From Ignavibacteria bacterium CG2_30_36_16 (GTDB lineage Bacteria > Bacteroidota > Ignavibacteria > Ignavibacteriales > Ignavibacteriaceae): 37,112 nucleotides of DNA. Below are positions 8,966-15,530 of the stretch, one piece after another. A program made the translations under genes and the position numbers. The stretch spans positions 1 through 37,112 of the forward strand of contig MNYQ01000213.1 of the NCBI GenBank assembly GCA_001873185.1. Direction: 5' to 3'. The notes below the pieces were generated by a model, which worked only from the letters and a program-made list of their open reading frames with translations, did no database searches and was not told the origin of the DNA. Numbering within the stretch: position 1 is the stretch's first letter; each line of letters starts with the position of its first letter.

Positions 8966-9437
8966 CCTTAACGGGATTCATGCCGAACGACAGTTGGGGC
9001 ATAGAGGTTTTGAAAAATATTTTTATTCCTTTTCTCGCTTGACACAAAATTTACTGATAAAAAATTTATTTAGATGTGCGTTAAACTTTTTTAAGTACTT
9101 TCGGGACGTAGTTATTCCGAAAGAACAAGTTGGTTCTTTGAAACATTGACGATATTTATATATGCACTATCGGAGGAGAACAGAAGCTGATCCCGCAAAG
9201 CGAGACCGCCACGACACTATAGTATTGCCATGTAAATCTTTGTTTTTAATGTCAAAATATTTATGTGTTTACAAATTTTAATTTTACATTGTGCATTGTA
9301 CATTGTACATTTTTAATTGCGGCTTGCCGCGCTATGTTCTTAGAGATGCCCTAAATGAAGATTAGTTTATTTGCTTAACAGAGTTCATAACTTTATATTT
9401 GCATTTCATTTTTGGGAATTTACCCATAGATGATCCT
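8966..9437. other. Gene-free stretch between higA and tRNA-Leu
   Basis: I see no credible gene. An imperfect hairpin follows the antitoxin (AACCT...AGGTT enclosing ATGCC...GGCAT, about 8963-9014) and may be a terminator or a degenerate recombination site. At 9291-9312 there is a run of GCATTGTACATTGTACATT, the same words as the 21-bp tandem repeat at 13121. The tRNA promoter lies at the right end. Confidence 0.5.
9371..9401 (+). promoter_or_regulatory. Bacteroidota-type promoter of tRNA-Leu
   Basis: TTG (9371-9373), 20 bp, TATATTTG (9394-9401): an exact match to the -33/-7 form TTG-N20-TAnnTTTG. It lies 36 bp before the mature tRNA 5' end, leaving a short leader for RNase P to remove. Confidence 0.75.
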
Positions 9438-11561: not shown

Positions 11562-13019
11562 ATGTACCGGTACAGATTAAATTTACTTCCGACCTACTTA
11601 ATCACTATTTGCTTATTTACAGCAAACCTTCATGCACAAGATTTAAAAAATAAACTCGACCGCTACATTTTTGATTACCAAAAGAATAAAAAAGTCCCTT
11701 CAATTTCGGCCGGCTTACTTCACAATGATAAGTTTATTTGGCGCGGCGCTGAAGGATTTGCCGATATTGAAAACTCAGTTTATGCATCCCCCCGCTCGGT
11801 TTATCGTATCGCATCTATAAGCAAACTGATCACAGCAATTGCAATAATGCAGTTGGTTGAAAAAGGCAAAATTAATTTAGATGTTGACGCGCGAAGATAT
11901 CTCCCTGATTTCCCAAAGAAAAAGTGGAAGTTTACAGTGCGGCAATTGTTAAATCATACGTCGGGCATTAGGTCGTATAAGAATGGAGAGTTCGACAGTA
12001 AAATATATTATGCATCAATTTCGGAAATAGTAAAAACACTTGCCGAAGATTCACTTCAATTTGAACCGGGAACAAAATATCTTTATTCTACTCTCGCATA
12101 TAATTTACTTGCTGCAGTAATTGAAAAAACATCGGGAATGAGCTTCAGGAGTTATCTGGAACTTAATGTTTTTGGACCTGCTCAAATGTATTCTACATAT
12201 CTCGACGAACAACCAGAAATAGTTCCGGAGCGAGCCAGCGGTTATATCAAAAGTCAATATAGGAAATATCAAAATGCGCCACTTGCAGATTTAAGTTCAA
12301 AATATCCCGGCGGTGGAATTATCTCAAACAGCGGAGACCTGCTTCGCTTCGGGAAAAATATAATTAATGGCACCTTAATTAAACCCGAAACGCTTGAGAA
12401 GATGTTCGAAAAAGTGAAATTAAAAGATGGCAAAATTATTTCGTACGGTCTCGGCTGCGAAATAAAAGCAGATTCTGCAGGCAGATTTTATTTCGGGCAT
12501 ACCGGCGGCGGCACAGGTTTTTCATCACACTTAATGATTTATCCAACAGAAAAACTTGTTACTGTTTCTCTTTCTAATATTAAAGATCGTAATCTTGATT
12601 CGCCCGCATTGGACATTGCATATATTTTTTTAGACGGTGCAAAACCCGTTGTACTCCCCGCTCTTTCAGATAAATTATTTGACATCACATTTGACACAGG
12701 CATTGATTCGGCAATAGTATTTTATTCATCCACCAAAAAAGATTCTTTTCAACAAAGGCAATATGTTTGGGGATTTGATGAACTGCTCACTTTTGGCTTT
12801 GATCTTTTAAAGGCAAAACTTATACTGTCTGCTATTAAATTCTTTAAATTCCTCACAAACGATTTTCCGCAAAACGCGGATGCTTACATAGGACTTGCAG
12901 AAGCATATCAGCAGGATGGTAACAAAGGATTAGCTTCAAAATTTTATAAAGAAGCTTATCGGTTGGCACCGAACAGTGAAAAACTTAAGAAAATTCTTGG
13001 AATCAGGACCAAAAAATAA
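11562..13019 (+). CDS. Secreted beta-lactamase-fold serine hydrolase with TPR-like tail
   Basis: A 485-residue protein with an N-terminal signal peptide (hydrophobic core TYLITICLFTANLHAQ, cleavage about residue 26). The PF00144 class C beta-lactamase / D-Ala-D-Ala carboxypeptidase domain shows SxxK as S85-I-S-K88, HTSGIRSY, the YST/YxN-like box in YLYSTLAYNLL, and HTGGGTGF in place of KTG. After about residue 400 a helical segment (FPQNADAYIGLAEAYQQDGN) resembles one or two TPR repeats. Such proteins are periplasmic or surface esterases or peptidases; true beta-lactamase activity should not be assumed. It stands alone, 55 bp after clpP beyond a terminator. Confidence 0.88.
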   Translation: MYRYRLNLLPTYLITICLFTANLHAQDLKNKLDRYIFDYQKNKKVPSISAGLLHNDKFIWRGAEGFADIENSVYASPRSVYRIASISKLITAIAIMQLVEKGKINLDVDARRYLPDFPKKKWKFTVRQLLNHTSGIRSYKNGEFDSKIYYASISEIVKTLAEDSLQFEPGTKYLYSTLAYNLLAAVIEKTSGMSFRSYLELNVFGPAQMYSTYLDEQPEIVPERASGYIKSQYRKYQNAPLADLSSKYPGGGIISNSGDLLRFGKNIINGTLIKPETLEKMFEKVKLKDGKIISYGLGCEIKADSAGRFYFGHTGGGTGFSSHLMIYPTEKLVTVSLSNIKDRNLDSPALDIAYIFLDGAKPVVLPALSDKLFDITFDTGIDSAIVFYSSTKKDSFQQRQYVWGFDELLTFGFDLLKAKLILSAIKFFKFLTNDFPQNADAYIGLAEAYQQDGNKGLASKFYKEAYRLAPNSEKLKKILGIRTKK

Positions 13020-13120
13020 ATTCAAACTTCTTTTGAGCGCAAGTGAGAGTGAGAGGAAAACTTACACTTTCAAATTGAAAGAATGTTAAAACAGTTCAGC
13101 CCCGCCACTATTACCATTAT

Positions 13121-13191
13121 ACATTCTTAATTGTGCATTGTACATTCTTAATTGTGCATTGTACATTCTTAATTGTGCATTGTACATTCTT
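13121..13191. repeat. 21-bp tandem repeat, three full copies and a partial one
   Basis: ACATTCTTAATTGTGCATTGT occurs three times in a row without change (13121-13141, 13142-13162, 13163-13183), followed by ACATTCTT. The TTG in the third copy is the -33 element of the promoter at 13173. Related words occur at 9291-9312. Confidence 0.9.
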
Positions 13192-13203
13192 TAACTATTT
13201 TTG
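13173..13203 (+). promoter_or_regulatory. Bacteroidota-type promoter of the glycosyltransferase pair, inside a tandem repeat
   Basis: TTG (13173-13175), 20 bp, TATTTTTG (13196-13203) fits TTG-N20-TAnnTTTG exactly. The -33 element is contributed by the last copy of the tandem repeat, and initiation would fall about 35 bp before the ATG at 13246. Confidence 0.65.
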
Positions 13204-13245
13204 CACCGTTTTCAAAGGGCTTTTACAAAATATAAAACTAAATTG

Positions 13246-14403
13246 ATGTCAATATCTAGTAAGAAAAAAATTTTAATTATTGGACCTGCTTATCCTTACC
13301 GCGGAGGCAATTCGCTGTTTGTATCACATGTTTATGATTCACTTAAAGATCATTTCGAAGTGATAATTTATAATTACAAACTGCTCTACCCATCACTGCT
13401 ATTCCCGGGCACTACTCAATATGATGAAAGCGAAACATCTATAAAAAAAGCTCCGAATAAGCGTCTTATTAATTCTGTTAATCCGTTAAATTGGATAACA
13501 GCGGCTTACAAAATAGCGCATGAAAAACCGGATTTAATTGTTTTCGATTGGTGGCATCCTTTTTTTGGATTTTGTCATTTCGGTATTTCTGCATTACTGC
13601 CTGCAAAATATAAAAAGAAAATAATTTTTATTACAGAAAATTATATTTCTCATGAAGCTAATGTGGTAGATAGATTTTTAACGAAGATAGGATTAACGAA
13701 CGCTAAAGCATTTGTCGCGCTTTCTGAAATTGTTGAAAAAGAATTAAAGACAAATAATCCTAGCAGAAAGATATATAGAAGCGAACTACCTGTATACAAC
13801 TGCTATAACATCGAATCCCAAAATGAAAGTCTTATTCGTAAGAAACTCGGCTTTAATGATGAGGATAAAGTTTTGCTTTTTTTTGGATATGTTCGAAAGT
13901 ATAAAGGTCTTGACATTTTAATTGAGGCGATGCCGGAAATATTAAGATTTTTTCCGGAAGCAAAACTTCTGATTGTCGGTGAGTTTTATGATGATCCGAA
14001 AGACTATACAAATCGTGTTATGTCACTTGGTATCAAGGATAAAGTTACAATTGTAAATAAATTTGTTCCGAATGAAGATGTTGGCAGTTACTACATTGCA
14101 AGCGACCTTGTTGTGCTCCCCTACCGCAGCGCAACTCAAAGCGGAATACTTAATGTTGCATACGGATTTCTAAAGCCCGTGCTGGCAACACGCGTTGGAG
14201 GACTTTCGGAATTTATGCTCGAAGATAAAACCGGAATTCTTGTGGAACCTGATTCTGCTGAGGAATTATTAAGAGGGGTAATAAAATTTTTTGAGCTTAA
14301 ACTGATTGTCAATTTCAAAGAAAATATTAAAGCGTATATCGGAAGTAATAAGTTTGAAAAACTACCGCAACTTTTTGAAGAAATTATACAGGACTTAAAA
14401 TGA
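13246..14403 (+). CDS. Family 4 (GT-B) glycosyltransferase
   Basis: About 385 residues from the ATG at 13246. An upstream TTG at 13201 would overlap the promoter -7 box, so the ATG is preferred although its RBS is poor. The N-terminal Rossmann domain begins KILIIGPAYPYRGGNSLF, with a glycine-rich acceptor-side loop. The C-terminal nucleotide-sugar domain has LLFFGYVRKYKGLDILIEA, LLIVGEF, and the donor-binding stretch ATQSGILNVAYGFLKPVLAT then VGGLSE. This is the GT4 pattern of retaining transferases that build cell-surface polysaccharide or glycolipid. It overlaps the next gene by 4 bp (ATGA), so the two are translationally coupled. Sugar and acceptor cannot be read from the sequence. Confidence 0.9.
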   Translation: MSISSKKKILIIGPAYPYRGGNSLFVSHVYDSLKDHFEVIIYNYKLLYPSLLFPGTTQYDESETSIKKAPNKRLINSVNPLNWITAAYKIAHEKPDLIVFDWWHPFFGFCHFGISALLPAKYKKKIIFITENYISHEANVVDRFLTKIGLTNAKAFVALSEIVEKELKTNNPSRKIYRSELPVYNCYNIESQNESLIRKKLGFNDEDKVLLFFGYVRKYKGLDILIEAMPEILRFFPEAKLLIVGEFYDDPKDYTNRVMSLGIKDKVTIVNKFVPNEDVGSYYIASDLVVLPYRSATQSGILNVAYGFLKPVLATRVGGLSEFMLEDKTGILVEPDSAEELLRGVIKFFELKLIVNFKENIKAYIGSNKFEKLPQLFEEIIQDLK

Positions 14404-15530
14404 TTTTAAAAACAGATTGTAGATTGTTCCCCGGCGATCGCCCATGCATCCCAAATAAGCAAGAAGGGATTAAATGCGATAATTGTAATTATTACTCTCC
14501 TGTCGAATTTAAAATCTTAATCATTAAACTTGATGCTGCCGGAGATGTTCTCCGCACAACTTCTCTTTTGCATGCACTCAAAGAGAAATACAAAACTTCA
14601 CACATTACCTGGTTAACAAAAAGAAATTCAATCGCTCTATTTAAGAATAATAAGCTTGTTGATGAGGTTGTTGAGTTTGAATCACCCGCACTGCTTGCTC
14701 GACTTCAAACCGAACAGTTTGATCTTCTCATTCACCCTGATGCATCTCCTGTTTCGTGCGCGCTTGCTTCCGTAGTTAAAGCCAAAGATAAAAGAGGATA
14801 TACTCTAAATGCAAAAGGAAAAGTAATTCCCGTTAATGACGATGCGGTTGAATGGTTAGAGATGGGCGCGTTTGATGAATACAAAAAGAAAAATAAAAAA
14901 TCTTACCAGCAGATACTTCACGAAATTGCCGGCGTTGAATACAAGAAGGGTGAAATTATAATTAATCTTTCACAGCCCGAACTTGAATTCAAAAATGATT
15001 TTAGATTGAAGAATAATTTAGATCAGTATAAACATCTAATTGGTCTAAATACCGGAGCTTCAACGAGATGGCAGCTAAAGCAATGGCGGGCTGAGGGATA
15101 TCAAGAATTAATTACGAAACTTAGTTCCCAAAAAGAAATAGGTATTCTACTTTACGGCGGTCCTGAAGAAGCAGGGCGAAACGAACAAATTAAAAGTTTA
15201 TTTCCCAATGTTATTGACACCGGCACAAGCAATTCATTGCGGGAGTTTTTCGCACTGCTAGATCTTTCTGATATTGTAATAACAGGAGATACTCTTGCAT
15301 TGCATGCCGCAACTGCTTTGAAAAAAAATATTATATGCGTGTTCGGTCCTACTTCGCACAATGAAATAGAGGATTACGGCAGGATAAAAAAAGTAATCCC
15401 TGAAATGGATTGCTTAACTTGCTATAAACCCGTTTGCGATTTTGTTCCTAATTGTATGGATTTAATTTCGTCAGATGATATCTATAGTGAAGTGATACAG
15501 CTCGTGAACAATTTTATAGATTTAGTTTGA
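14400..15530 (+). CDS. Family 9 (heptosyltransferase-like) glycosyltransferase with Cys-rich ends
   Basis: A 376-residue ADP-heptose:LPS heptosyltransferase-like GT9 protein. ILIIKLDAAGDVLRTTSLLH is the N-terminal nucleotide-fold signature, IGLNTGASTRWQLKQW the central GT9 motif, and ITGDTLALHAA with VFGPTSH the donor-binding end. It acts on the inner face of the membrane in lipopolysaccharide or related glycan synthesis. The N-terminus carries a cluster CRLFPGDRPC then CDNC, and the C-terminus CLTCYKPVC then C, which could bind metal together. It overlaps the GT4 gene by 4 bp, and its 3' end overlaps the convergent gene by 17 bp. The sugar specificity is not determinable here. Confidence 0.9.
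   Translation: MILKTDCRLFPGDRPCIPNKQEGIKCDNCNYYSPVEFKILIIKLDAAGDVLRTTSLLHALKEKYKTSHITWLTKRNSIALFKNNKLVDEVVEFESPALLARLQTEQFDLLIHPDASPVSCALASVVKAKDKRGYTLNAKGKVIPVNDDAVEWLEMGAFDEYKKKNKKSYQQILHEIAGVEYKKGEIIINLSQPELEFKNDFRLKNNLDQYKHLIGLNTGASTRWQLKQWRAEGYQELITKLSSQKEIGILLYGGPEEAGRNEQIKSLFPNVIDTGTSNSLREFFALLDLSDIVITGDTLALHAATALKKNIICVFGPTSHNEIEDYGRIKKVIPEMDCLTCYKPVCDFVPNCMDLISSDDIYSEVIQLVNNFIDLV

Follow-up and report, generated by a model that had tools for sequence, protein, structure and literature searches.

Heptad array upstream of the glycosyltransferase genes

The window analyzed here is a 37,112-nucleotide stretch of DNA from Ignavibacteria bacterium CG2_30_36_16, and the features given below with window coordinates lie on its plus strand. 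Open reading frames and domain matches place a group 1 glycosyltransferase gene (PF00534) at 13246 to 14403, starting at ATG 13246, and a family 9, heptosyltransferase-like glycosyltransferase gene (PF01075) at 14400 to 15530, which overlaps the former by 4 bases. The upstream gene (11562 to 13019) encodes a beta-lactamase-like protein (PF00144) with a TPR-like C terminus, and the 226-bp intergenic gap between its stop at 13019 and the glycosyltransferase pair holds a tandem repeat.

This repeat, at 13116 to 13192, is real. It has the highest score among the 19 TRF rows of the window (13115 to 13191, period 21, 3.7 copies, 98% matches, score 147), and the second row, with a score of 57, describes the same stretch at period 7. 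TRF, the unit search, and the heptad parse together define 11 heptads of the form ATTNNNN in the order ATTATAC-(ATTCTTA-ATTGTGC-ATTGTAC)x3-ATTCTTT. Three identical copies of a 21-bp unit occupy 13120 to 13140, 13141 to 13161, and 13162 to 13182, in an assembly that, like that of its congener G001, is a draft in which repeat copy numbers may be wrong. Searching the genome for this unit with up to 3 mismatches returned 13 matches, while the backward-read control returned 0. The TRF and unit searches thus bear out the three identical 21-bp units of the original prediction. Its further claim that each unit holds a TTG was right as far as it went, since there are two TTGs in every 21-bp period. It had also held that only the TTG of the last unit is spaced correctly, which agrees with our coordinates: TTG 13173 to 13175 stands 20 bp before the putative -7 box TATTTTTG, and the next TTG downstream stands 13 bp before it. 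The same would hold wherever a periodic array runs up to a -7 box at a fixed place.

Probable promoter core at the edge of the array

The box TATTTTTG (13196 to 13203) matches exactly the Bacteroidota consensus TAnnTTTG, as given in the available text of two reports (PMC9723704, PMC7366714), and stands 50 bp ahead of ATG 13246. According to the same texts, primary-sigma promoters of Bacteroidota carry TAnnTTTG at -7 and TTTG or TTG near -33; for F. johnsoniae, the available part of the report states that identifying a -33 motif was not possible (PMC7366714). The window locus resembles these promoters in that its TAnnTTTG is exact and stands about 50 bp ahead of the ATG, with a TTG 20 bp upstream, but not every site matches the TTTG form at its first base (the window locus has ATTG). 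The candidate -33 element, assigned from the heptad parse and the congener, is TTG 13173 to 13175 in the ninth heptad (ATTGTGC). If the box occupies -12 to -5, as described in the available text on Flavobacterium psychrophilum (PMC9723704), transcription would start at 13208. A scan with the sigma-70 consensus, which is not that of the group to which Ignavibacteriaceae belong, gave 6 promoter-like sites versus 2.3 in shuffles, with 5 of the 6 on the minus strand, and an Rfam search over 12900 to 13400 gave no match at the gathering threshold.

We compared the locus with a single congeneric genome, G001 (locus L039), which represents a different species of the same genus and whose orthologous glycosyltransferase shows 73% protein identity. 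TTG-N20-TATTTTTG is found at the same place in the congener, with TATTTTTG identical. With positions numbered relative to where the -7 box begins, 35 of 40 are identical at -10 to +29 and 12 of 20 at -30 to -11, versus 29 of 90 at -120 to -31 and 6 of 30 at +30 to +59, the last value resulting partly from a one-base shift. The congener has no 21-bp array upstream of its -33 element, and its glycosyltransferase gene has a divergent BshB1 gene as upstream neighbor, a homologue of which lies on contig C143 of the window genome. Because the core is kept while the array and the upstream gene differ, this comparison supports the promoter reading and points to the array as a lineage-specific edge. 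The gene order of the window is probably the older one, because the same upstream gene directly precedes the glycosyltransferase in 7 of 38 named relatives (gaps of about 5 to 147 bp between tblastn matches; several of the 38 loci are too short upstream to judge gene order).

Counts from further genomes bear on both elements. Among the 34 relatives used (of 38), 9 carry TAnnTTTG 10 to 70 nt upstream of the orthologous gene, with a shuffle mean of 1.4 and a maximum of 6 in 2,000 shuffles. At 10 to 59 nt before ORF starts, the sense/antisense counts of TAnnTTTG in samples of the window genome, the relative G008, and the named loci were 23/11, 10/1, and 11/8; over 200 nt, they were 34/36 (no sense excess), 23/14, and 21/17 (a small excess in the latter two), respectively. 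For the spacer between TTG and the TAnnTTTG boxes, N20 was the commonest (7 of 78) and N19 was found in 4 of 78, with about 2.1 expected per spacer; N10, at 6 of 78, was nearly equal to N20. N19 and N20 combined account for 11 of 78 boxes versus about 4 expected, a modest enrichment. A -33 element in Ignavibacteriaceae therefore seems plausible, with the counts pointing weakly that way. That the glycosyltransferase pair has a promoter whose -33 TTG is supplied by the array, as originally predicted, gains support from the core conserved in the congener and the TAnnTTTG boxes of the nine relatives; we regard the promoter as probable and the overlap of repeat and promoter as real.

Predicted effect of copy-number change on the core promoter

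The original prediction went on to propose that slippage in the array would shift or remove the promoter spacing. In silico loss or gain of one or two 21-bp units left TTG-N20-TATTTTTG unchanged, a result that does not bear out phase variation by spacing change. Whole-unit changes are silent for the core promoter because the promoter-proximal edge of the array is fixed. Single-heptad changes gave a similar picture: all 11 duplications and 8 of 11 losses kept TTG at N20, the exceptions being losses of the last three heptads at the very edge, which bring TTC to that place. A change by whole units thus leaves the core as it is, and the start predicted above lies downstream of the array. Any other copy-number effect would, on these simulated changes, act through sequence upstream of the -33 element.

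Dispersed heptad family in the genome and its relatives

Judged by its sequence, the array is one copy of a dispersed heptad family. The heptad pattern gave 40 + 33 matches in the window genome and 0 + 28 when read backwards, and it is present in 36 of 61 family genomes, among them the window genome; one genome has as many as 214 matches. A few genomes also give many matches in the backward control, as G007 does (67 versus 132 forward matches), and therefore the pattern counts do not all represent the ATTGTAC family. In stretches of the window genome chosen for holding heptad matches, at least 34 arrays could be parsed. All 26 that were classified lie outside predicted ORFs, with both neighbors co-oriented in 9 cases, both opposed in 8, and mixed or at a contig end in 9; the corresponding numbers for 23 arrays of G008 are 7, 9, and 7, with one array inside an ORF. 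The family thus consists of many arrays per genome, mainly intergenic and patchy among relatives.

Fifteen of the 34 arrays of the window genome end in ATTGCGG, and these seem to be portions of a longer dispersed element. Within the window, TRF, an element search, and the parse locate a second heptad array at 9281 to 9322 inside such an element. The element (window 9240 to 9335) measures roughly 100 to 140 bp and often has a palindrome-like start CCCGCATGCGGG and the end GCGGCTTGCCGC on either side of a short heptad array. Searching with window 9200 to 9340 yielded 47 matches in the window genome (itself included), some of them to the heptads alone, and several copies of the element lie at contig ends (C25, C75, C76, C143, C240), as expected of a multicopy repeat.

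Other arrays at putative promoters

Of these 34 arrays, 4 place a TTG 18 to 21 bp before TAnnTTTG, versus about 0.30 expected (428 positions x 30/42168), and one of the 4 is the window site itself. The others lie before der (TIGR03594), before a gene for MTHFR (TIGR00676; its 282.6 bits fall slightly short of the 293.7 cutoff), and on contig C179, where a hairpin-like stretch lies in between. None of 17 strictly parsed arrays of the congener has this spacing (about 0.16 expected), a count that leaves aside the G001 promoters on C214 and C447, which have the fitting spacing with heptads too few or too interrupted for the parse. These numbers are no more than suggestive of a general tie between arrays and promoters. 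The MTHFR promoter reads TTG-N19-TAAATTTG in both the window genome and the congener, although the heptads differ; 18 of 20 positions are identical at -10 to +9 and 15 of 60 at -90 to -31. In both genomes, a heptad array immediately precedes the 5' end of the tmRNA gene (L009, 1501 to 1530; L165, 1496 to 1531), with no TAnnTTTG observed a short way downstream of either array. When the array-surrounding stretches of the window genome were compared with 18 such stretches of the congener, the shared sites were those at the glycosyltransferase, MTHFR, and tmRNA genes and at C55/C65. Matches to L157, L159, L162, L169, and L172 were set aside and read as shared domains of multicopy proteins. The der, MTHFR, and tmRNA neighbors are housekeeping and not surface genes.

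Proposed role of the array and alternative explanations

According to the above-described analysis, we consider it likely that an ordinary promoter of the Bacteroidota primary-sigma type serves the two glycosyltransferase genes and is abutted and overlapped at its upstream edge by a copy of a slippage-prone, dispersed heptad repeat. Slippage or unequal exchange in steps of 7 and 21 bp may have enlarged the array, and the edge of the array would serve as the -33 element. The primary sigma factor would use TTG 13173 to 13175 together with TATTTTTG at 13196 to 13203, RNA would start near 13208, and the -33 TTG would give way to TTC only if one of the three heptads nearest the -7 box were lost. 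Such a promoter would be an example of a dispersed short repeat that forms part of a core promoter and whose periodicity buffers the promoter against its own copy-number change.

It seems unlikely that the site has no promoter at all, with transcription of the glycosyltransferase pair coming from the upstream gene and the array being a plain intergenic repeat beside a chance TAnnTTTG. The seven relatives in which the same upstream gene directly precedes the glycosyltransferase would suit this explanation, but the gap in the window is 226 bp, and the congener, whose upstream gene is different and divergent, conserves the -7 box together with its surroundings. We regard it as quite improbable that the 21-bp units, each two helical turns long, are binding sites of a regulator or nucleoid protein, so that the number of units tunes expression. 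Three identical units at 21-bp spacing do lie directly upstream of the -33 element, and some other arrays adjoin housekeeping promoters; however, the congener keeps the core promoter without the units, just 4 of the 34 arrays in the window genome place a TTG 18 to 21 bp before a -7 box, and arrays occur in either orientation to their neighbors. No protein known to us binds the 21-bp unit.

A contingency switch, in which array slippage alters promoter spacing or strength and phase-varies surface-glycan enzymes in the manner of the Haemophilus hmw1A heptads, appears highly unlikely. Although the perfect threefold 21-bp unit suggests recent expansion, and the available text on hmw1A reports that the number of 7-bp repeats changes its expression (PMC8262952), gain or loss of whole units here leaves the -33 element, spacer, and -7 box identical, and most single-heptad losses and all duplications also hold TTG at N20. 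A dedicated glycan switch is not indicated, because sister arrays adjoin the promoters of der and the MTHFR gene and also the tmRNA gene, and the array is not supported as a phase-variation locus. Besides the promoter-edge reading, the heptads might act as a portable and self-renewing store of -33 elements, seeding or repairing promoters while the sequence of the arrays turns over, but we find this rather unlikely. With ATTG spaced by multiples of 7 bp, an array beside a -7 box would tend to place a TTG at N19 to N20, and on this reading the MTHFR promoter would be the second case and der the third. Should arrays indeed seed -33 elements, they would provide a route from simple repeats to promoters in Bacteroidota-like bacteria.

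Relation to known heptamer repeats

As far as the available text of the two reports goes, the nearest in kind are the intergenic heptamers (PMC4679880) and, as a case in which a repeat and a promoter box have bases in common, the hmw1A promoter (PMC8262952). The former, TAACTGA repeats, are described as intergenic in marine Beggiatoaceae, Cyanobacteria, and five Bacteroidetes (PMC4679880). They resemble the heptad arrays in being seven-base direct repeats, mainly intergenic, with many sets per genome and a patchy distribution across lineages, and in being missing, in some cases, where close relatives have the corresponding intergenic region, at least in the part of that report at hand. However, the window units are ATTGTAC, ATTGTGC, and ATTCTTA, mixed within one array, and TAACTGA is not among the window heptads (ATTATAC, ATTCTTA, ATTGTGC, ATTGTAC, ATTCTTT). 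In addition, most TAACTGA sets are reported to stand immediately ahead of start codons, where the available text interprets them as translational sites (PMC4679880), whereas about 50 bp separate the start codon from the -7 box that the window array abuts, and the other arrays show no fixed gene orientation.

The hmw1A promoter of Haemophilus influenzae contains (ATCTTTC)n with 13 to 24 units, and it resembles the window locus in having a heptad repeat upstream of the gene and a P1 -35 box that shares bases with the last repeat, as stated in the available text (PMC8262952). There, the copy-number effect is attributed to P2, which yields a transcript containing the repeats, rather than to P1, which the last repeat overlaps (PMC8262952), while the transcript predicted for the window locus starts downstream of the array. 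In the literature on short repeats, Ignavibacterium promoters, and phase-variable glycosyltransferases, covered mostly through titles and the openings of abstracts, we found no description of ATTGTAC-family arrays.

Further observations on the heptad family

Several additional features were recorded in the genomes that carry heptads. On contig C193 of the window genome (L093, 1191 to 1279), two heptad arrays of opposite orientation fill the space between tRNA-Leu and tRNA-Val genes. By coordinates, two sites in addition to the 26 classified ones, on contigs C55 and C65 (L080, L094), lie inside a reading frame that is conserved in the congener; with L163 of G001, these arrays fall within reading frames of a related gene family. 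Y1 transposase domains (PF01797) were matched three times in G000 (C235, C232, C148) and twice in G001 (C365, C801). A replication-strand polarity of the G008 arrays was apparent among the matches listed (of 214), but it was rejected, as all 50 ATTGTWC matches show both strands mixed along the chromosome. On the 4.2-Mb contig C1 of G008, none of the 50 ATTGTWC-pair matches falls in the 2.0-Mb stretch from 1.98 to 3.98 Mb, and the GC skew of this contig switches sign near 0.3 to 0.5 Mb and 2.6 to 2.8 Mb.
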